DNA from: a virus
Length of the DNA stretch: 43,096 nucleotides
Virus record (IMG/VR): IMGVR_UViG_3300048549_001807
Span: 1-43,096 of that record
Direction: 5' to 3' (one strand)
The notes beneath the pieces are model-generated. The model was not told the origin of the DNA. It did no database searches and worked only from the letters and a program-made list of their open reading frames with translations. The translations under genes were made by a program, and so were the position numbers. Shown piece by piece: positions 21,911 to 38,868 of the stretch (positions within the stretch are counted from its first letter, which is position 1; each line of letters opens with the position of its first letter).

Positions 21911-23053
21911 ATGAAAATTACTTTAGAAAAAACCCCCGAGCAAGTCGAGCTTATTAAAGCTATGGCTTCTAAGAATAGAGATGTAGCTTATGAAGCTCAA
22001 ACTGCATTGGCTGAATTTATCGGCCCAGTTTTGGCAGAAGTTGTAAATACAGCTCCTACTGTAAGCAACATGTTTACCAGTCTTCAGTTTAACAGCGATG
22101 AGAGCCCAAGTATTCCTTTGGATCTTTATCACGATATTACTGACGAAGATTACATCCAAGTATGGAGTCAATCAGTTCCTGGCGGGCTTCCTACCAACCA
22201 AGTCGCTCCTTCACAAAGCGAGCTTAAGTTCACAACTTATACTCTTGATAGTGCATTGAGTTTCGATAAGCGTTACGCTTCTCGTTCTAGGCTTGACGTT
22301 GTTAGCAAGACATTTACTCGTATGGCCCAAGAAGTTCTTCTTAAACAAGAAAAAACTTCTGCCAGCATGATAATGACCGCATTGGCTAACGGAAACACAA
22401 ACGGAGAGCAACACGTTATGCGTAGCGCTCAAGCCGGACGTTTCTTACTCTCTGACCTCAATAAATTGTTCACCAAAGCAAAAAGAATCAATACTTCTTG
22501 GACTGGCGGAACACCTGCAGAGCGCAGAGGAAGAGGTATTACTGATCTTCTTGTTTCTCCTGAAATTGTAGAGGAAATTAGAGGTTTGGCATATAATCCA
22601 ATCAACACTAAGGGCGCAGACGGAAATGCTCCTAGTGGTAATACTAATGGTATTGCTGGAACGGATTCTATGAGAGACGCTATCTTCAACAGCGCTGGAA
22701 TTCCTGAGTTTTATGGCGTTTCCATTCAAGAATATAATGAAATGGGTAACGGCCAAAAATGGAACACCGTTTTCGGCACAGCTGCAGGCAGCACTACATA
22801 TGCTGACAATTATGCAGTTACTGGAGCAGGCGTGGCAACAATTCAATCCTCTGAAGAAATCCTTGTTGGTGTTGACCTTAGTCGCGAATCTATGATTCGT
22901 GCGGTTGCTACTGACTCTGATTCTGGAGATGAATTCTCGCTTGTTGCGGATGACCAGTTTGTAACTCGTCAATCTAAAATTGGTTATTACGGCTCTCTTG
23001 AAGAAGGTCGTATGATCATTGATGATCGTGTGTTACTCGGTCTTATCGTTTAA
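21911..23053 (+). CDS. Major capsid protein, 380 aa
   Basis: Position after protease-scaffold, size, high-expression codon use, AAAGGAA ribosome site and a strong terminator directly after it all indicate the major capsid protein. The N-terminal helix (EQVELIKAMASKNRDVAYEA) is followed by beta segments and an E-loop-like region; the central part LLSDLNKLFTKAKRINTSW with DLLVSPEIVEEIRGLAYNPI is typical of HK97-fold capsid proteins of myoviruses. I cannot place a protease cleavage site with certainty. Confidence 0.8.
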   Translation: MKITLEKTPEQVELIKAMASKNRDVAYEAQTALAEFIGPVLAEVVNTAPTVSNMFTSLQFNSDESPSIPLDLYHDITDEDYIQVWSQSVPGGLPTNQVAPSQSELKFTTYTLDSALSFDKRYASRSRLDVVSKTFTRMAQEVLLKQEKTSASMIMTALANGNTNGEQHVMRSAQAGRFLLSDLNKLFTKAKRINTSWTGGTPAERRGRGITDLLVSPEIVEEIRGLAYNPINTKGADGNAPSGNTNGIAGTDSMRDAIFNSAGIPEFYGVSIQEYNEMGNGQKWNTVFGTAAGSTTYADNYAVTGAGVATIQSSEEILVGVDLSRESMIRAVATDSDSGDEFSLVADDQFVTRQSKIGYYGSLEEGRMIIDDRVLLGLIV

Positions 23054-24397: not shown

Positions 24398-24922
24398 ATG
24401 AGCGATATATCAGAAAGTAATTCGTATTCCAATTCAAACGACAATAAAAAAGTCAAATCTGAACTGTTTCATATTTGGAAAAAAGCAAGAGTAATGTATG
24501 AGACAGTTAAAGATGACTCTAAAATGGAAGATTGGGTTAAAAAAAATATCACAAAAGCTTATGAGTTGATTGACGAAGCAATGAGATATTCAGAATACGA
24601 AAAAATATTTCCAAATTCAGAAGAAAAAGAAGAATTAGAAGGCGATAAAAATAACTTTCTGTCCAACGAGGACAAAAGATATCCAACTCCCGCCGCTCAA
24701 GAAACCGGAGATGAATTTATCACAAGATGCATTTTAGATGCAAATATGAAAAAAAGATATCCTGTTCAGGGAGACAGGTTTTCTGCATGCATGTCTATTT
24801 ATAATGATAAAAAGAATGATGTCTCTGAGGACTTACATAATAATCCTGGAGAAAAATTTGAAGATCCTATGTTAACTAAAGATCTAGAATTACCAAATCC
24901 AGTTAAACCTCTTCTTCCTTAA
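24398..24922 (+). CDS. Helical protein ending in an F..RC....R..AC motif, 174 aa
   Basis: The N-terminal part is a charged helical bundle (ELFHIWKKARVMYETVKDDS). The second half carries YPTPAAQETGDEFITRCILD, then YPVQGDRFSACMS, the same Cys motif as in the 52-aa protein at 12369. Its end overlaps the convergent clpC-like gene by 20 nt, with no terminator between them, so the two units read into each other. Likely a minor head or packaging protein; unproven. Confidence 0.5.
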   Translation: MSDISESNSYSNSNDNKKVKSELFHIWKKARVMYETVKDDSKMEDWVKKNITKAYELIDEAMRYSEYEKIFPNSEEKEELEGDKNNFLSNEDKRYPTPAAQETGDEFITRCILDANMKKRYPVQGDRFSACMSIYNDKKNDVSEDLHNNPGEKFEDPMLTKDLELPNPVKPLLP

Positions 24923-27380
24923 TTTCGTATTTTATATTTTCTTTTAATATAGAAAATTTTATTTCTGAATTTTCTTTTAAGACTTTACCAAGAATAAGTT
25001 TACTTAGTTCGTTTTCTATTAATTTTTGAATAATTCTTTTGATTGGTCTTGCGCCCATTTTTTCTTCGTGAGCTTTTGTTGATATATATTCAAAGATTTT
25101 AGGTGTTGCAGATAGTGTTATATTTTTATCTTTTAGCTTGTCGCAAACTTTATTAAATTCTAACTTAGATATCTTAACAAGTTGAGGCAAATCAAAATCT
25201 TGGAATAAAATAATATCATTTAAGCGATTTAAAAACTCGGGCCTAAAAAAGCCCTTAAGTTCTGACCTAAGTTTATCTAGAGCTATAGACTCCGAAGAAC
25301 TTTGTCCAAATCCTATATTAGGCTTTGCAGCTTTTTCACTACCAATATTACCTGTTAAAATAATAATTGTATTATTGAAATTAATTTTTCTACCAGAATT
25401 GTCTGTTACAACCCCTTCTTCCATGATTTGCAATAAAATATTTAAAACTTCAGGATGGGCTTTTTCTACCTCATCAAACAAAATAACACTATACGGATTT
25501 CTTCTTACTTTTTCTGTCAGCTCTCCTCCTTCTTCGTATCCTACATACCCAGGAGATGCTCCAATTAATCTAGAGGCAGAGATTTTTTCACTATACTCGC
25601 TCATATCAATTTGAATCAATGTGCTTTTACTTCCAAAAATAAACTCAGAGATGCATTTTGCAGTATAAGTTTTTCCTGTGCCGCTTGCGCCCACAAGAAG
25701 AAAACTACCTATAGGTTTTTTTGGGTCTTTAAGTCCTGATTTTGAACGCAGTATAGATTCGGAAATTTCCTCCAAGGCTTTTGATTGACCAATAATTTTT
25801 TTATTCAAGTTTTTAAATAGGTTTAACATTTTTTCAGAATCTTTTTTACTTATTTCTTGCATTGGTATCCCTGTTCTCGAGGAAAGTACTTCATAGATAT
25901 CTGAAGGTTTGACCTTTATTTTTGATTTACTGATTTTATTTGCCCATTTAGTTATGACTGCATCATATTCTTCTAATAAATCTAATTGCTCATCTTCAAT
26001 ATCTTCTATACTAAAACCAAGAGACTGCTTTCTGGATTCTTTGAGTGCAAGCAGCTCAAGCTCATTTTCTATATCTTTTGCCTCTTGTGGTCGTTTAATG
26101 TTTTTAATTTTTACTTTAGACCCCGCTTGATCCATAATATCTATCGCTTTATCTGGAAATTGTTTATCTAAAATATATTTAGAAGACAAGTCTACAATTA
26201 AATCCAAAACTTCTTCTGGATAGTGAATACTATGAAAGCTTTCGAATTTAGATTTTACGCCATCAAGTATCTGCCTCGTTTGCTCTTTTGTTGGTTCTAT
26301 AACTTTTACAGACTGAAACCTTCGATCAAGCGCTCCATCTTTAAGTATAGTTTTTTTGTATTCATCCTGGGTTGTAGCTCCAATACATTTTAATTCTCCT
26401 CGGGCCAATAAAGGCTTTAAAAGATTTGCGGCATCCATACTGCCTTCTGCGCTACCAGCACCTACTAAAGTATGAATTTCATCAATAAATAAAATTATCT
26501 CTTGATTTTTTCTAGCTTCTTCTATTACGCCTTTTAAGCGCTCTTCAAATTGACCTCTGTATTTAGTTCCTGCAATTAAAGATCCAAGATCTAAAGAATA
26601 TATTATTTTAGCCAAGAGAAAGTCAGCGCAATCTTGTTTTTCAATTTGTTGAGCCAAGCCTTCCACTATTGCCGTTTTACCAACTCCAGGTTCACCAAGT
26701 AAAACAGGATTATTTTTTGTTCTTCTGCATAAGATTTCTGAAACATCATAAATTTCAGATTCTTTTCCAATTATGTTATCAAACTTTCCTTTTGCTGCTA
26801 ATTCATTTAGATTAGTGGCATATTTTTCTAGATTAGGAATCTTACTTTCTTTAACTGTTTGTGCTGATTTTTTAATTTGTTGAATTCTGCTTTTTTTATC
26901 TACAGATGTTTCTTTTGAAATATGTAAGTAATCCCTGACTTGAGCAATAACGTCTTCTTCGGACGCATTGAATTTAACAAAAAATAATGGTATATTCGAG
27001 TGCTCATATTTTAAAAGAGCTAAAATGATATGTTCTACTCCTACATACTCATGTCCAAGTTTATGAGCAATCGATGCGGAAACTTTTAGAACTAGATGAA
27101 AATGTTCATCGTATTCTGGGTTAATAGAGTCATTCATAAAATTTTGATGCTTTTTATTGATTTTGTAAAAAGAGCGTTCTATATCTTCTTTCAGAAGCTC
27201 TCGGTCGATTTCAAGCAAAAATAATATTTCACTAAGTATACCAGCATTTAAATTAACCATTCCATAGAAAAGATGTTCCAATTCGACATGTTCATTGGAA
27301 AATTTTTTGGCTACCCTTTTCGCTTCACTAATTGCTTGTTGCGCTCTCGGCGTAAAATTAGGTTTAGGAGTCATTTTCAT
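24903..27380 (-). CDS. clpC: ClpC/ClpA-type AAA+ unfoldase with ClpP-docking loop, 825 aa
   Basis: Clp-N domain (residues 5-150), AAA-1 with GEPGVGKT (229-236) and [13 protein letters not shown], a short middle domain (about 430-485), AAA-2 with GASGTGKT (564-571), [14 protein letters not shown] and [12 protein letters not shown]. After sensor 1 the loop reads PNIGFGQ (IGF at 689-691), the position and sequence of the ClpP-binding tripeptide of ClpA/ClpC/ClpX, so it should dock a ClpP peptidase. No ClpP is encoded in view; the host's is the likely partner. ClpB is excluded by the short middle domain and IGF loop. Starts: ATG 27380 or ATG 27374, the latter 7 nt after GTG-TAATTT. Confidence 0.88.
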
Positions 27381-27381
27381 T

Positions 27382-27390
27382 AAATTACAC
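27382..27390 (-). promoter_or_regulatory. Late-type promoter motif GTG-TAATTT before the clpC-like gene
   Basis: Minus strand GTG (27390-27388), TAATTT (27387-27382), 7 nt to the ATG at 27374. It could give the unfoldase a second, late promoter inside the replication operon. Confidence 0.4.
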
Positions 27391-27395
27391 AATAA

Positions 27396-29954
27396 TTACT
27401 TAACGTCAGACATTTTCATGTATATCTTTTCGTCCATAATATTAATTGAATCAAGAAATAATATATCTTCTGCTTTTCTGCCATATGCTATTATAATACT
27501 CTTTTTTAAGGGAGTTTTCTCTTTTCTCTCAAAATATCTATCATAATAATTTCCCCTTCTAGAATTTAGAAGCATAGCATCGTATTTACCGTATTCATCT
27601 GAAATAGAAAGTTTCATGTATTTATTACCATTTCTTGAGGTTCTTTTAATGCAGTCATCCACTACGCCTATAAATTTACCTTTATCATCTAAGTCCATAA
27701 TATTTAGATCTCTAGAATCTAACAAAGAATTATAATTGTCTATAAAGCAGCTTTTTAAATTGCAGCTATGACTGTATCCAAGAAGTTCCGTCTCAAAGTA
27801 CCAATTTGCGAAGCTTTGATATTCTTTATTTTTATCATAAATAGATTTATATATATCATATTTCTTTTTGAATGTTTTGAATCTAGATTCTTTCATTAAG
27901 GGTTTTCCGTCGTCCCCAACTAATTCTCCCTTTTTTGCATCTGCTATACAATTTAAAAGTTTATATTCATATTTTTCTCCTAAAGCAATAAAGTTACGTT
28001 TCTCGCGATCAGTTAATAAATTAAATGCTTGAGCTTCAAGCACCATTAGCGATCTATTTTCACCTTTACTCTCTAATGCTCCAGCTTGAATTAGAGCACT
28101 TAAAACTCCAATATTTAATCCCGCCTGTTTTGCGGCAAGAAAAATATCATACTTTGTTGGGGTTTCGCTTGATCTAAAATCTTTTAATGACTGCAAAGAT
28201 TTTTCGCTCACACCCTTTATGCTATTTAAGCCAAATCTAATATTTTTACCCTCAATCGAGAAGTCCATACCGGATTTTGCTAAGTCTGGAGATAATAATT
28301 TAATACCAAAATGAGATAATTCTTTACATATTTTTGCAATTTCTTCTTGAGGAGAGGGTTCGTATTTCGTCATCTTCAATAAAGAGATGAAAAACTGCTG
28401 AGGGTAATTAAATTTAAGATAACTTGTCCAAGCTGATAATGTAGCATATGCCAAAGAGTGAGACTTGTTAAAGGAATAGTTTGCACTATCCTCTGCAACG
28501 CTCCACAGTATCTGAGAAATCTCTCTAGGTAGATCATTTTCTACTACTTTGTCTTCGATTTTCTTTTTCCATGCGGGCATTTGATCTACTTTTTTCTTGC
28601 CAACGATCCTTCTTAATTGCTCTGATTCGTCAAGTGTAAACCCAACCTTAACTGCCATCTGCATTAACTGTTCTTGGTATAGCGGAATACCTCCTGTATA
28701 ATCTAAAACATCACTGAAAAATTCATGAATTACTTGAGCTTCTTCGGTTTCAGAATATGTAGCATAGTTGTCCAAGAATTCCAATGCGCCAGGCCTGCCA
28801 ATTGCAACCACCGCACTAAGCTGCTCTAGGTCTCTAGGTTTAATCTTTTTACAAACCCTATAGTTAGTATCAGATTCAAGCTGAAAAAGTCCATGAGGGG
28901 TTCTTAGCGCTTGTAATGGCTTGTATACATTTGAATCATTTAAGTCTACGGCGGAGATGTCTATATCTAAGTTGCTGCATACATCATAAATCACGCTCAA
29001 AGTCCTCAAACCAAGAATATCAAATTTAACCATGAGTTCTGCAACCCAATTCATATCATAACCTGTAACCAAGGCTCCGTCATTAGATTTTTGAATTGGG
29101 CAGATATCTGTAATTTTTTGAAAAGAAATTGCAATACCGCTAGGGTGAACTCCAGTATTTTTATTTAGACCTTCTAGTTTCAGCGCGATCTCAAAAACTT
29201 CTGGGTTTTTAGCTGACCAATCTGCAAATTTTTCACTTTCTTCAATCGCAGATAAAATTGGCATAACAACTCCAAATCTCTTTGGGATCGTATCACTTAC
29301 TTCGTTAACTTCTTGCTCGGAAAATTCCCCAACGATTTTGCCACATTCTTTTACGCAAAGCTTTCCGCTCAAGGTATTTAATGTTAAAATCTTAGCTGTA
29401 CGAGCTGGATGTTTCTTTTCAATATATTCGATAACTTCGGCTCTTCTTTCATAAGCAATATCGTTATCTACATCAGCTAAAAGACTGCCATCAAGGTATG
29501 TGATTCCATCTTTCTCTATTTTTCTAGCTCTGCTTTTAGAAACAAATCTCTCGAAGAATAAACTATACTTTACGGGATCAACATTAGTAACGCCAATTAA
29601 ATACAGCACTAAAGAGCCTGCTGCAGACCCTCTTCCTGGACCTGTTGGTATATCGTTTTCGTGGCAATAATTTAATATATCCCAGTTTAACAAAATATAA
29701 TCTATGAATCCTAGCTCATCTAAAATTTTTAATTCTGATTTTGCTCTATCAAAGTATTCTTTTTTGTTTTTAAATTTATCAATACCTTTATCATAAACAC
29801 CTTTGTGGCAAAGCTTGCGAAGAAAGTCTAAATTAGAAATATCTTCTGGAGCCTCAAGTATTTCATAATATTTCTTTTCGATCTTAATTTCAGGAAGTCT
29901 TACGCCTGGAGGAGCGCAATCTTCGTAGCTTGTAAATTGTTCTGTAAAATTCAT
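27396..29954 (-). CDS. dnaE: C-family DNA polymerase body (DnaE without PHP domain), 852 aa
   Basis: Starts just before the palm: PTGPGRGSAAGSLVLYLIG (103-121), catalytic Asp161 and Asp163 in ADVDND, and Asp312 in VKFDILGL. Further DnaE landmarks are GLFQLES (355-361), IGRPGALEF, PLYQEQLMQMA, LRRIVGKKK and FNKSHSLAYA, followed by HhH-like GLNSIKGVSEKSL and a C-terminal OB-like domain (GKFIGVVDDCIKRTSRNGNK). The PHP domain is encoded two genes upstream. Start taken at the ATG overlapping the exonuclease stop (TAATG). It should be the replicative polymerase; no beta-clamp-binding peptide was assigned. Confidence 0.9.
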   Translation of the reverse strand: MNFTEQFTSYEDCAPPGVRLPEIKIEKKYYEILEAPEDISNLDFLRKLCHKGVYDKGIDKFKNKKEYFDRAKSELKILDELGFIDYILLNWDILNYCHENDIPTGPGRGSAAGSLVLYLIGVTNVDPVKYSLFFERFVSKSRARKIEKDGITYLDGSLLADVDNDIAYERRAEVIEYIEKKHPARTAKILTLNTLSGKLCVKECGKIVGEFSEQEVNEVSDTIPKRFGVVMPILSAIEESEKFADWSAKNPEVFEIALKLEGLNKNTGVHPSGIAISFQKITDICPIQKSNDGALVTGYDMNWVAELMVKFDILGLRTLSVIYDVCSNLDIDISAVDLNDSNVYKPLQALRTPHGLFQLESDTNYRVCKKIKPRDLEQLSAVVAIGRPGALEFLDNYATYSETEEAQVIHEFFSDVLDYTGGIPLYQEQLMQMAVKVGFTLDESEQLRRIVGKKKVDQMPAWKKKIEDKVVENDLPREISQILWSVAEDSANYSFNKSHSLAYATLSAWTSYLKFNYPQQFFISLLKMTKYEPSPQEEIAKICKELSHFGIKLLSPDLAKSGMDFSIEGKNIRFGLNSIKGVSEKSLQSLKDFRSSETPTKYDIFLAAKQAGLNIGVLSALIQAGALESKGENRSLMVLEAQAFNLLTDREKRNFIALGEKYEYKLLNCIADAKKGELVGDDGKPLMKESRFKTFKKKYDIYKSIYDKNKEYQSFANWYFETELLGYSHSCNLKSCFIDNYNSLLDSRDLNIMDLDDKGKFIGVVDDCIKRTSRNGNKYMKLSISDEYGKYDAMLLNSRRGNYYDRYFERKEKTPLKKSIIIAYGRKAEDILFLDSINIMDEKIYMKMSDVK

Positions 29955-30598
29955 TATACTTCTATTTCCCATATCATTTTTTTAAATACTTCGTAGTTAA
30001 CTCTAATGTCATATAAAGCATCATGCAATTTTTTCTCATCAAAGTCAACATCAAAATCTTTACAGCATTGTTTAAGATTGCAGCTTAAACCTCTCTCAAT
30101 CAAGTGGTTAAGGCGATATTGCCATGCTAAAAAATTATCGTCTTTGTCCAGCTTAATTCTCTTCTTTAGAGCTTTTGCCAAGCAAAGAGTATCCACAAGG
30201 TTTTCTGTATAACTAAAATCAGATTTTGCGTTTGAATCTATAAGTTTGCGATGCAGGTTATGCATATAAACATCAAAGCCAAGTAAGTTATGACCAACCT
30301 TGAGATACGAATCGTCATATAAATATTTCTCAAAATGATCTAATGCAGCTTTAGGACATGTGGCTTTTTTCTTGTATTTCGCCTCTGTAAAGCCAGTAAT
30401 CTTTGCGGCATCAGGAGATACATTTAATTTGTCCCATTTGAGCCAGTAATCTTTTTGCTCAACAATTTTGTTGTTTTCTATAACAAGAAATGCTAATTGC
30501 CATGGTTTATTATTGGACACAAGATTTAAATTACATGTTTCATAATCAAACAGTAAGTATTTTTTATTTTTTTGAAATCTAAGCAGTGATTCTTTCAT
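29954..30598 (-). CDS. dnaQ: DnaQ-like 3'-5' exonuclease, 214 aa
   Basis: DEDDh exonuclease: Exo I LFDYETCN (Asp18, Glu20), Exo II VGHNLLGFDVYMHN (Asp109), Exo III HDALYDIRVNYEVFKKM (His192, Asp197). The start at 30598 is chosen because GGAAGGAG lies 4-11 nt upstream; an earlier in-frame ATG at 30631 lacks such a site. It overlaps the PHP gene by 20 nt and the polymerase by one base, so the three are produced together; it should proofread for the split DnaE. Confidence 0.88.
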   Translation of the reverse strand: MKESLLRFQKNKKYLLFDYETCNLNLVSNNKPWQLAFLVIENNKIVEQKDYWLKWDKLNVSPDAAKITGFTEAKYKKKATCPKAALDHFEKYLYDDSYLKVGHNLLGFDVYMHNLHRKLIDSNAKSDFSYTENLVDTLCLAKALKKRIKLDKDDNFLAWQYRLNHLIERGLSCNLKQCCKDFDVDFDEKKLHDALYDIRVNYEVFKKMIWEIEV

Positions 30599-31352
30599 TT
30601 TTCTCCTTCCAGCTTTCGAAGCAAAATTCATTGCTACCGAAGTGATCTAAGTTTGGTTTTGATAATGTTTTATTGCCAAAGCTTCTACCTGTTATACATT
30701 TGTATGTTTGTAAAGCTTTTACGTCTTTTTTATTTTTATAATATATACTTTTTACTTTTTCTGTTTTCAGTGATTTATTGTTTGCATATTCTTGAACTTT
30801 CTTAGATAAGAAGATGTCAAATGGCAGAGAATTATCCTCAATAAAAAATGTTGGACCACAAAAAGAAAAGTTTGGAGAGCAGTTGGAAAATTTCATCAAA
30901 TTATTATATATAAAACTATCATAAAAAGGGATAGCTAATAATAAATCCTTATCGCTCCAGTGCTTTTTGAGTATTTTTTCGTCAACACAATTAAAGTTTT
31001 CAGAAAATGCTTCGCTGTATATGCTGTTTAGCAACTTGCATCCTTTGGAATTTTTAGAGAAAATTATAATTTTATGAGAACTATCTACAGATTCTTCTTT
31101 TGGATCTAAAGAAGCTTTTTCTCTCATGTTAACTCTGAGCCCGAAAATTAATTTTAGATTTAAAGAATCTGCATTTTTTTTGGCTTGCAAGAACCCTGTT
31201 AGAGAATCTTCTACTAAAATTATTTCTTTTAAATTATTTTCTACAGCAATCGAAAAAATACTATCTGCACCCCCTTCTTTATGTGTACTAGGATTGTCTA
31301 GAGTTAATATACTTTTGCCGATAGAAAAGTGACTTTTAAATAATGGTATCAT
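30579..31352 (-). CDS. Separate PHP domain of a split DnaE, 257 aa
   Basis: The N-terminus LFKSHFSIGKSILT corresponds to the H-x-H-S-x-Y-S-x-x-D-G start of DnaE PHP domains, and AVENNLKEIILVEDSLTGFL followed by ADSLNLKLIFGLRV fits the A...G...A-x-T-D-H ... G-x-E core. C-terminal segment (KALQTYKCITGRSF) matches the end of DnaE PHP. First His of H-x-H and the His of the T-D-H motif are replaced (Phe or Lys region, Ser), so metal binding is probably lost and the domain structural. First gene of the replication operon, directly after a consensus promoter. Confidence 0.75.
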   Translation of the reverse strand: MIPLFKSHFSIGKSILTLDNPSTHKEGGADSIFSIAVENNLKEIILVEDSLTGFLQAKKNADSLNLKLIFGLRVNMREKASLDPKEESVDSSHKIIIFSKNSKGCKLLNSIYSEAFSENFNCVDEKILKKHWSDKDLLLAIPFYDSFIYNNLMKFSNCSPNFSFCGPTFFIEDNSLPFDIFLSKKVQEYANNKSLKTEKVKSIYYKNKKDVKALQTYKCITGRSFGNKTLSKPNLDHFGSNEFCFESWKEKNERITA

Positions 31353-31358
31353 GCTAAT

Positions 31359-31387
31359 ATTCTAGCAAAAAAACAGTTTCATGTCAA
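31359..31387 (-). promoter_or_regulatory. Promoter of the replication operon, leaderless geometry
   Basis: Minus strand TTGACA (31387-31382), 17-nt spacer ending TGC, TAGAAT (31364-31359), exactly 6 nt to the ATG at 31352. Near consensus. Confidence 0.8.
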
Positions 31388-35292: not shown

Positions 35293-36576
35293 TTAAGCCA
35301 ATATATCAAGTAAAGGTTCACCTTTATGAGCTATTGTAAATGGCCTTCCAGAAGGAGAATACTGGTAGTCATTTAGAGGAAGTCCTAAAGTATGAGCAAT
35401 AGTTGCATTCAAGTCTTCTGGCTTGATTGGTTTACCTTCTATAGGAGATCTTCCTGTTTTATCGGTTTCCCCGTAAGTCATACCGCCTTTGATTCCGCCT
35501 CCTGCAAGAAATGCGGTAAAACAGTAAGGCCAATGATCTCTTCCGTCTCTACCGTTAATATTTGGGGTTCTCCCAAATTCAGAAGTTAATACCACCAAAG
35601 TCTCCGAAAGTAGACCTCTCCTGTTCAAATCAAAAAGTAATCCGCTTAAAGCCTGATCTATGTCTGCGCAATTCGCTGCTACTCTATCAAAGTTGTTATC
35701 GTGAGTATCCCATCCTCCTCGTGTTACTTCGACATATCTAACACCGTTTTCAACCAATCTTCTTGCTAATAAACAACCTTTTCCGAAATTAGTTTGACCG
35801 TAAAGCTCGCTTGTTGCTACTGTTTCTTTTGTTATATCGAAAGCGTTTAAATCGTCACTATTCATTAATTTAACTGCATCTTTATATAGATCAGAGTAAG
35901 CTCTAACTTGTTTTTGAGGAAACTGAGTAGAAAAATTCTCATTTAATGCCTCTGCGATAGATATTCTGCTTTGAAAATGCTCGTGATCTAGATATGATGC
36001 CATTTTACTATTAGATAATCCTGCGGCTGGATTATTGATTGGTAAGGCGCCATATTTAGATTCTAGAAATCCTGCTCCGCCTCCTCCTCCGCCAATTTTA
36101 ACATTGGATGGAATGGTTCTATTTATTGCACCTCCAAGTTTAGAAACCCAGCTACCAAACGTTGGGTGCACAATAGTGCCTCTTTTGAGGTAACTGGTAT
36201 GCATAAGATAACTCGCTTGTTCATGAGCTCCCTGACTAGTATTCATAGTTTTAATAATTGCACCATGATGCATAAACTGTGCGGTTTTGGGTAAATTTTC
36301 TGATAAAATCACTCCGTCTGCACTAGTTGGAATAGATTTTGTCGGCCCCTGAATATCTGGCGCATCAGGCTTTGGCCCAAAAGTATCAAGGTGAGACATG
36401 GCTCCTGACATATTTAAATATATAACGTGTCTAGCTGTTGGTATTCTGGATGCAGGCTCAAGGGCGCTAACATTGTTATGTATATAAGCTCCGGCCATAG
36501 GCATTAAGCCTACCCCAAAGCACGCTTTTGCGGCATACGCAATAAATTCTCTTCTTCCTAATTCATTTACTTTCAT
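35293..36576 (-). CDS. DUF1501 family protein with Tat-type signal, 427 aa
   Basis: Begins with a twin-arginine-like signal (G-R8-R9-E-F-I-A-Y-A-A-K) as usual for DUF1501. Family landmarks follow: HVIYLNMSGAMSHLDTFGPK, the HEQASYLMHTSY region, a Gly-rich loop, RYVEVTRGGWDTHDNN, LVVLTSEFGRTPNINGRDGR followed by DHWP, and FLAGGGIKGGMTYG. DUF1501 belongs to the alkaline-phosphatase/sulfatase superfamily and abounds in Planctomycetota and Verrucomicrobiota, where it pairs with DUF1549/DUF1553, as here. It would act outside the cytoplasm; substrate unknown. Very unusual as phage cargo. Second gene of the operon from 38868. Confidence 0.9.
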   Translation of the reverse strand: MKVNELGRREFIAYAAKACFGVGLMPMAGAYIHNNVSALEPASRIPTARHVIYLNMSGAMSHLDTFGPKPDAPDIQGPTKSIPTSADGVILSENLPKTAQFMHHGAIIKTMNTSQGAHEQASYLMHTSYLKRGTIVHPTFGSWVSKLGGAINRTIPSNVKIGGGGGGAGFLESKYGALPINNPAAGLSNSKMASYLDHEHFQSRISIAEALNENFSTQFPQKQVRAYSDLYKDAVKLMNSDDLNAFDITKETVATSELYGQTNFGKGCLLARRLVENGVRYVEVTRGGWDTHDNNFDRVAANCADIDQALSGLLFDLNRRGLLSETLVVLTSEFGRTPNINGRDGRDHWPYCFTAFLAGGGIKGGMTYGETDKTGRSPIEGKPIKPEDLNATIAHTLGLPLNDYQYSPSGRPFTIAHKGEPLLDILA

Positions 36577-36597
36577 AATTTTATTTGGTTTTAGTTT

Positions 36598-38868
36598 TTA
36601 TTTTATAAATATAAATTCGTGTGTGTTTATTAAAGTCCAGATTATTTCTTTATATACCTCTTTCTTGTCTTTTAATGACGATTTAAATAATGATATTTCT
36701 TTTGAGGATGGATTTCTATTTAAAATATATCTAAATCCAACTTTAATTTTATCATCTAGAGATTTTTGAGATTGCAATGCTTTAATAATTTCAAAGTTTT
36801 TATTTTTTAATAATCTTGTTTCTACAAAGCCATTAAGTAAATTGAGCACCTGTGTTGCAGAAGCGCTTTTGTTTGCGTTTTCGATCTGCTCTCTGTCTGA
36901 ACCCCCAAACTCGCGAATAAGGTGTCCTACAGGCGCAGGAGAGGGTAATTCGGAGGCTCGTACAGAATTGCGGTCTTTCACGAAGTTTTGTTTGTAATCG
37001 TCTTTCTTGGTTTGTTGCTGGGATTTAAATTTATCAACACAAGATTCGCAGCAAAATGCAACCGTCTCTCCGTTTTCATTAAGAGCTAATAAAGTTGGAT
37101 CAATAGCTCTGCCTGGTTTAATTGGGCAATCTGTATTTATTGGTTCTGTGAATTTTGGTTTATTTGCTGTTTTTGGCCTTTCGGTTTTATTTATTTTGGC
37201 CATAAGATCTTGAAATAATTCTTCGCCAGTCATTGCCGAAAAGTTTTGAAAGTCTTCGTAGCCTTTTGTGTTTTGCTGAAGTTTTCTGGAATCTATATCG
37301 TTAAACGTTAAATTTACTAATGAATCCCAGACTTGTTCGCCACTCATTCTTTCAAGCATTGGCCCTTGATAGAAATATGGAATAGCGTTGTGAGATTGTT
37401 TTTCAGAATTTGGTCCTGCGATAATCCATTTTACATCTACAGGCATAGACTGATCTTTATTATCTTTTGGGATAACATCTCTTATTACAGATTGACGCTG
37501 AAAAGTTTTTGTGTTATATAATACCCTTAAAAACTCTTTTAAATCGTAATCTAAAGCTACCATAACTTTTTCCAAATGTAGCTGAAGTTTTGGATCTGTA
37601 GCTAATGTATCATCAAACATGTTATCAATTGGCTCAATTAAAGCTAGTCCAAAAGCTTCTTTCCATAACCTATTTACAATAACAGCTGTAAATCTAGGAT
37701 TCGAATCTGTTGCAAGCCAATTTGCATATATTTCTCGAGACCCTGCTTGAGGGGCTTTTGTTTTTATGTCGATTTCTTTTCCAAAAATTGTTTTTCCAGA
37801 TAATGTTTCGCTTGGCTTTGCGTTGTCGTATTGATAGTCATTTGGTAAATTAATTTTTCCTGAACCCAGACTATCTAAGCCTGTTTGAAGAATGTCTTGA
37901 ATGCCCCTAGATTCATTTCTTAGCTGTCTAGATTTTTGCGGCTCACCTGCTTGCTCTAGCCTTCTTTGTTCTGTATTAACCAATCTATTAAATTGACCTA
38001 AATTATCAACACCTCTTCTTCTTAGATTTGTCGAACCGCTTGTGAACGCAGCCATTTCGTAGAATTGTTTTTGTGTCCAGCGATCAAATGGATGATCATG
38101 GCACTGGGCGCATTCAAGACTAGTGCCAAGAAAGATGCGAACTGTATTGGCCATATTGTCGAGGGGCATGTTTACATCTCGCGCAAAGTAACTAACTCCT
38201 TCATTACCTCTTTCCCATAAAGCTCCAGATGAAGAAAGCATTTCTCTTACCCAAACATCATATGGTCTATTGTTTGATATAAATTCTTTTACATAATTTT
38301 TATATGGTATACCTGATACTCTATTATTTAATCTATCTTTTATTCTTAATATATCAGCCCAAAAGTTAAACCAATGACTCACATACCCTTCGCTGCCTAA
38401 TAGTTGATCTATTAATTTTGATCTTTTGTTTTTGCCTTTACTATTTAAAAAGGTGTCTACTTCCGTTAACGACGGAGTTCTCCCGATAACCTTTAAATAA
38501 GATCTGCGCAAAAATGTAGCATCATCAACTTCTTTGTTTGGTTTGAGGTTATATGATCGTAATTTTGTTTCAATTAAACTATCAATATATCTTGCATGGG
38601 TATTTAAATCTTTATCTGATAGTGGTTTTTTAAATTTCGGCAAAGCTTCGTGGCTTGGCGGGAAGTTGTTTTTGATATAAGCTTGATTATCTTCTGTAAG
38701 AGAATCTATTGCTATTCTAAATAATTGTAGATCACTTGCTCTTTTTATTAAAGCGTGAGTCGCATTCGCTTCAAGAATATCTCCTTTCAAGTCTTTTCCG
38801 TTATTAAAGTATAATGTATCTCCAAGACAATAAAAAGACGAGATTAATAATAAAAGTAGTTTTTTCAT
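36598..38868 (-). CDS. DUF1549/DUF1553 protein with heme-type CxxCH and YHS-like insert, 756 aa
   Basis: Signal peptide (residues 1-16, KKLLLLLISSFYCLG), then a small domain (DTLYFNNGKDLKGDILEANA ... LTEDNQAYIKNNFP) of the kind found at the start of verrucomicrobial secreted proteins. DUF1549 covers about 90-275, with FLRRSYLKVIGRTPS and C253-A-Q-C256-H257 followed by DHPFDRWTQ; DUF1553 follows from about 375 (YANWLATDSNPRFTAVIVNR). A Cys-rich insert (C581-P-I ... F-C606-C607-E-S-C610) resembles YHS/TRASH metal-binding domains. Exported; CxxCH may hold heme c. Promoter with leaderless geometry; the DUF1501 gene follows. Confidence 0.88.
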   Translation of the reverse strand: MKKLLLLLISSFYCLGDTLYFNNGKDLKGDILEANATHALIKRASDLQLFRIAIDSLTEDNQAYIKNNFPPSHEALPKFKKPLSDKDLNTHARYIDSLIETKLRSYNLKPNKEVDDATFLRRSYLKVIGRTPSLTEVDTFLNSKGKNKRSKLIDQLLGSEGYVSHWFNFWADILRIKDRLNNRVSGIPYKNYVKEFISNNRPYDVWVREMLSSSGALWERGNEGVSYFARDVNMPLDNMANTVRIFLGTSLECAQCHDHPFDRWTQKQFYEMAAFTSGSTNLRRRGVDNLGQFNRLVNTEQRRLEQAGEPQKSRQLRNESRGIQDILQTGLDSLGSGKINLPNDYQYDNAKPSETLSGKTIFGKEIDIKTKAPQAGSREIYANWLATDSNPRFTAVIVNRLWKEAFGLALIEPIDNMFDDTLATDPKLQLHLEKVMVALDYDLKEFLRVLYNTKTFQRQSVIRDVIPKDNKDQSMPVDVKWIIAGPNSEKQSHNAIPYFYQGPMLERMSGEQVWDSLVNLTFNDIDSRKLQQNTKGYEDFQNFSAMTGEELFQDLMAKINKTERPKTANKPKFTEPINTDCPIKPGRAIDPTLLALNENGETVAFCCESCVDKFKSQQQTKKDDYKQNFVKDRNSVRASELPSPAPVGHLIREFGGSDREQIENANKSASATQVLNLLNGFVETRLLKNKNFEIIKALQSQKSLDDKIKVGFRYILNRNPSSKEISLFKSSLKDKKEVYKEIIWTLINTHEFIFIK

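Follow-up and report, generated by a model that had tools for sequence, protein, structure and literature searches.

Bacterial C-family DNA polymerases have been surveyed in fused form, with the exonuclease in the PHP domain, with an N-terminal exonuclease, and split by an intein (Timinskas et al. PMC3919608; 2026 survey PMC12926913), and the PHP domain is reported to be strictly conserved in the replicative members (PMC3666897). The IMG/VR virus record IMGVR_UViG_3300048549_001807 (43,096 bases, analysed over its whole length and referred to as the window) encodes the parts of such a polymerase in three separate genes, for a PHP-domain protein (PHP), a DnaQ-type exonuclease (EXO) and a DnaE-type polymerase body (POL). 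It is likely that, in a large lineage of uncultured tailed phages, these genes form the core of the replicative DNA polymerase, and that they derive from a DnaE cut at the border between PHP and palm.

The E. coli polymerase III core (alpha, epsilon, theta) resembles this locus in having a separate DEDDh subunit and a variant, metal-less PHP, but its PHP is fused to alpha, and epsilon carries a C-terminal docking tail and a clamp motif. PolC also combines PHP, exonuclease and C-family polymerase in a similar linear order, but as one chain with the exonuclease inside PHP and an N-terminal OB/N-terminal domain, and it is distant in sequence and fold. The nearest kind in the tree are the fused DnaE-like polymerases of phages (phrog_405), for example those of Moorella phage MTATph1 and Streptomyces phage Yaboi; these are like POL in palm, fingers, HhH and OB, but they carry PHP at the N-terminus of the chain, reach at most about 34 % identity to POL, and have no intervening EXO gene. 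Pseudomonas phage F8 (Pbunavirus) and Serratia phage MTx have a DnaQ-type exonuclease/epsilon gene directly upstream of DnaE in the same operon, but there PHP is fused to the polymerase body and the exonuclease precedes the whole polymerase gene. DnaE also occurs in pieces in cyanobacteria (split DnaE) and in HNH- or intein-interrupted phage DnaEs (KLEB27-3, phiT1), but these breaks lie inside palm or fingers and, where split inteins are present, are mended by protein splicing. The border between PHP and palm is cut at the same place in the cultured Microbacterium phage Gilda (Krampusvirus, MT818420; L236:2866-6217), in which the adjacent genes gp56 and gp57 are both annotated as DnaE-like polymerase III; no exonuclease gene lies between them, however, and the PHP motif residues look intact. 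The Gilda split is an independent event, a joint clade being rejected in an approximately unbiased (AU) test (p 0.001).

No description of PHP, EXO and POL as three genes was found in the open-licence PMC literature, and PHP is not mentioned in a survey of phage polymerases (PMC11348598). An earlier note on this DNA had stated that no case of the split was described; this stands for the three-gene form, but Gilda gp56/gp57 is a deposited split of PHP from the polymerase body without an exonuclease gene.

Spread and separateness of the three genes

Relatives were collected in six scans of IMG/VR, and the family counts are lower bounds. Members were sorted by the profile score of POL, which was about 960 bits and above in a sampled ranking, other DnaEs scoring about 430 bits and below. 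At least 433 loci were obtained, falling into at least 236 groups without identical core sequence in common; the groups are distinct sequences rather than independent species, and POL forms 76 clusters at 80 % identity. The order PHP-EXO-POL was kept on one strand in all 222 groups in which the fetched stretch shows all three genes, which is far more than chance would give, and no fusion among the three was found in these 222 testable groups; a search of metagenomes for this order had been suggested in the earlier note. The other groups are interrupted by contig or locus ends, except L096, in which order and strand are kept and POL lies about 8 kb further downstream on the contig (distance taken from coordinates).

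In 82 groups the gap between PHP and EXO exceeds 300 nt, and 25 groups have a gap of this size between EXO and POL. The genes inserted between the parts are unrelated to them (SET-like, IMPDH/GuaC-like and cupin, the names being read from the sequences), so that a single continuous product is excluded in those groups. At L441:5230-5652 the gene of a small acidic protein of about 125 aa, of unassigned function, lies between EXO and POL, as do similar open reading frames (ORFs) at other loci, 47 in all.

All three genes are under purifying selection, the ratio of nonsynonymous to synonymous substitution rates (dN/dS) being about 0.06-0.12 for PHP and 0.02-0.04 for EXO and POL. PHP evolves faster, with a median identity of 49 % compared with 60 % for POL. 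Nineteen contigs of 102-211 kb carry one C-family polymerase each, and no PolA, PolB or second C-family polymerase was found in them.

Among 50,697 phage records, POL had 1323 matches (at most 34 % identity among the listed best matches), EXO had one and PHP had none. C-family polymerases had been called uncommon in phages; with 1323 of 50,697 records matching POL they are indeed a minority, yet not rare. The three genes would define the replicase of a widespread phage lineage without a close relative in the cultured-phage collection, and can serve as three marker genes for it.

Features of the encoded proteins

The window POL matched the Pfam families DNA_pol3_alpha (3e-61), finger (3e-33) and HHH_6 (2e-15), EXO matched RNase_T (3.7e-13), and PHP matched the PHP family at 2.1e-5 and 25.3 bits, just below the cut-off of 26.4. 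The domain calls of the earlier note hold with these matches, and its overlapping frames of 257, 214 and 852 aa were seen as described. A longer EXO frame, from 30631, gives 225 aa, and this form is used for the numbering of EXO residues.

PHP is a complete domain, aligning over residues 6-249 with the N-termini of DnaEs (hhalign probability 99.2 %, E 1.2e-19). Its AlphaFold2 model has a pLDDT of 91.5, and all 18 PDB matches at E<0.001 are DnaE alpha chains. The nine-ligand metal site of an active PHP is absent from the family, the ligand positions being replaced; in most of 225 sequences the metal-ligand columns, whose mapping depends on the hhalign alignment, hold K6, E48/D49, R73, K94 and S202/Y204. 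The site is therefore degenerate, as had been noticed in the window. Such replacement, often by Arg (positive residues), is known from bacteria, where a variant PHP co-occurs with a separate exonuclease; several ligands are also lost in E. coli DnaE, in which PHP stabilises polymerase III (PMC3666897). A PHP supplied in trans by nature would offer a way to test why replicases retain the domain even where it is catalytically dead, since its contribution to stability, exonuclease docking and fidelity could be measured by omission.

In EXO, the residues D29, E31, D120, H203 and D208 are invariant across 50 diverse sequences and make up the DEDDh set in an RNase_T fold, and an N-terminal motif, LLR(F/Y), is conserved. 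The chain ends 17 residues past the last catalytic Asp, which leaves no room for a tail, and compared with E. coli epsilon it is without the C-terminal clamp motif and PHP-binding tail. In NCBIfam, EXO matches the exonuclease part of PolC best (1.4e-13), and among PDB profiles its top match is likewise an exonuclease of PolC type (2.3e-9); profile comparisons place EXO near PolC-type and DnaQ exonucleases without pinpointing a source.

In POL, every one of 112 family members has the GRGS motif and the palm aspartates D161, D163 and D312, as placed by alignment to E. coli DnaE. The protein starts 16 residues before the conserved GVRLP, and its C-terminus ends soon after the OB fold, with no aligned counterpart found for the E. 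coli DnaE C-terminus (tau-binding domain). Close to the break, G17, V18, L20 and P21 of POL are conserved at 99 % or more, and P233, S240 and F243 of PHP are invariant, in the same 112 members; to judge from these residues, the conserved ends would fit a retained interface.

In four groups POL is split again by a split intein, between FNK and SHS (L364:9664-13605, L459:7995-11903, and also L368 and L359), with about 0.2-0.9 kb separating the two frames. This position is probably within a few residues of the split-intein site of cyanobacterial DnaE. In one further group (L485:9249-13037), POL contains about 400 additional residues in frame between RR and CVGKKK, and the ends of this insert are intein-like. 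In Alicyclobacillus phage KKP_3916 (L220:4095-10718), DnaE extends across four ORFs, annotated only as hypothetical proteins.

Origin, proposed function and alternatives

A palm tree of 91 sequences was calculated under LG+C20+F+G4, a comparison with DnaE and PolC that the earlier note had recommended. The split polymerases form a single clade (support 100) on a long stem, which joins the fused phage DnaEs (97; 88 in a smaller tree), with DnaE2 and PolC apart. PolC sits on a very long branch, and AU tests did not reject trees with the split clade and PolC together (p 0.31, 0.13). The POL body resembles DnaE more than PolC in sequence (profile scores of 494 bits and about 40, with TIGR01405 at 36.6 bits against a cut-off of 1043), in the tree and in fold (PDB matches of 4e-41 and 2.6e-17; AlphaFold2 pLDDT 88). 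The matches listed from one scan of bacterial genomes for a source were all DnaEs, none of them above 36 % identity. Since PHP is complete and is followed by EXO, whereas the exonuclease of PolC sits within PHP, the most plausible reading, drawn from the tree, is that a fused phage DnaE underwent an ancient secondary split in the clade's ancestor.

The earlier note had left open two origins, a secondary fragmentation, which is favoured here, and an intermediate on the way from DnaE plus DnaQ to fused PolC. In the latter case an ancient string of PHP, EXO and POL genes would later have fused into PolC. This would account for the PolC-like gene order and for the PolC-type exonucleases as best matches of EXO, and PolC joining beside the split clade was not rejected by the AU tests; we nevertheless hold it to be very improbable, given that the exonuclease lies inside PHP in PolC (PMC3919608) and EXO here follows a complete PHP, that the body is DnaE-like by the scores and fold matches above, and that the mixture-model tree joins the clade to fused phage DnaEs. 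DnaQ-type exonucleases are moreover widespread, so that the match of EXO is weak evidence. That the parts are joined into one chain, by split inteins or by frameshifting, is less probable still. The frames overlap in the window, and split inteins do occur in the family, inside POL, but PHP ends at its domain end, POL begins shortly ahead of GVRLP, no intein blocks were seen on inspection of the PHP, EXO and POL junctions, and the unrelated genes between the parts exclude frameshift fusion as a general mechanism. Nothing was found in favour of an assembly error or of a DnaE decaying into remnants, and both are refuted. A sequencing error splitting one frame, raised in the earlier note, is ruled out by the 222 groups, which come from many samples, together with the purifying selection, and the genes are not remnants beside a complete DnaE, none being present elsewhere in the 19 long contigs.

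A different possibility is that PHP is a free protein with a role of its own, as a regulator or DNA-binding factor, and that the body works without it. PHP does have its own gene, which is at times parted from EXO and POL by other genes, and it evolves faster than POL; but it is always upstream of EXO and POL in complete stretches, it retains the DnaE-type PHP fold, and the domain is reported to stabilise replicative C-family polymerases and to be strictly conserved among them (PMC3666897). This possibility is considered unlikely.

The preferred explanation remains a polymerase core made from a divided DnaE, in which PHP, EXO and POL would assemble. In its favour are the constant order of separate genes, the invariant catalytic residues of POL and EXO, the conserved ends at the break, the DnaE-type fold of PHP, the purifying selection, the replication genes nearby, the single origin in the tree, the lack of another A-, B- or C-family polymerase in the 19 long contigs and the bacterial precedent for a variant PHP beside a separate exonuclease. 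POL would carry out synthesis, and PHP, with its dead metal site, most likely takes the position of the lost N-terminal domain by binding to POL in trans, and stabilises POL. PHP probably also helps to dock EXO, which would proofread the products of POL. As EXO is without the tail of epsilon, the LLR(F/Y) motif is suggested as a possible docking element. Coupled translation would keep the three proteins in step in the window. Several observations count against such a core: EXO is missing the docking tail of epsilon; a sliding clamp was recognised neither with PF02768 (bacterial type) in the 19 long contigs nor with PF02916 (T4 type), the latter search lacking a working control; no contig is shown as 90 % complete or more; and the distances of PHP, EXO and POL correlate with one another (r 0.85-0.91) no better than with those of the Clp neighbour described below, so that co-evolution is not specific. 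A bolder version, which we regard as doubtful, would have an obligate heterotrimeric C-family replicase core predating the radiation of the lineage, with the dead PHP as a free adaptor bridging POL and EXO and the ClpA/B-type ATPase as a dedicated replisome remodeller.

Gene neighbourhood and window features

The positions of the three genes and of nearby features are given in Table 1. A Shine-Dalgarno sequence (AAGGAG) precedes the EXO ATG, within the 3' end of PHP. The promoter-like element is the best among 30 matches, with 28.7 expected by chance at its threshold; a transcript from it would give a leaderless or near-leaderless mRNA, judging by its spacing.

Table 1 Features of the split polymerase locus in the window
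Feature	Position	Strand	Description
PHP	30579..31352	-	stand-alone PHP-domain protein, 257 aa, degenerate metal site
EXO	29954..30598	-	DEDDh (DnaQ-type) exonuclease, 214 aa from likely ATG at 30598
POL	27396..29954	-	DnaE-type polymerase body, 852 aa: palm, fingers, HhH, OB; without PHP
PHP 3' end/EXO start overlap, 20 nt	30579..30598	-	seen in sequence
EXO stop/POL start overlap TAATG	29952..29956	-	termination-reinitiation type, from sequence
Promoter-like TTGACA-17-TAGAAT, 11/12	31359..31387	-	ends 6 nt ahead of PHP ATG
ClpA/ClpB-type AAA+ ATPase gene	24903..27392	-	directly downstream of POL; conserved neighbour

A ClpA/B-type gene directly follows POL in 138 of 221 groups, the median distance between the two being 0 nt. 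The three genes usually sit in a replication operon, in which a PD-(D/E)XK nuclease is encoded upstream in 180 groups, a primase of the DnaG type in 170, the helicase DnaB in 155 and RecA/UvsX in 117; the subgroup of the window has NrdA and NrdB in place of this replication set. A gp44-like (T4-type) clamp-loader protein of about 310-340 aa is encoded in 16 of the 19 long contigs. Soon downstream of POL, a 183-aa protein without clear family (L114:11942-12490) is found in 96 groups and is a candidate replication accessory protein.

By profile matches, the window also carries terminase large subunit, PhoH and ribonucleotide reductase genes, and positions 21911-23053 are a probable capsid gene by our own reading, PHROGs giving no match. 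DUF1501 and PSCyt2/PSD1 (DUF1549/DUF1553) genes are present at 35293-38868 of the window, and were found in 26 and 20 of the 221 related groups, respectively. Such genes are known mainly from Planctomycetota and Verrucomicrobiota, and may be a hint to the host.

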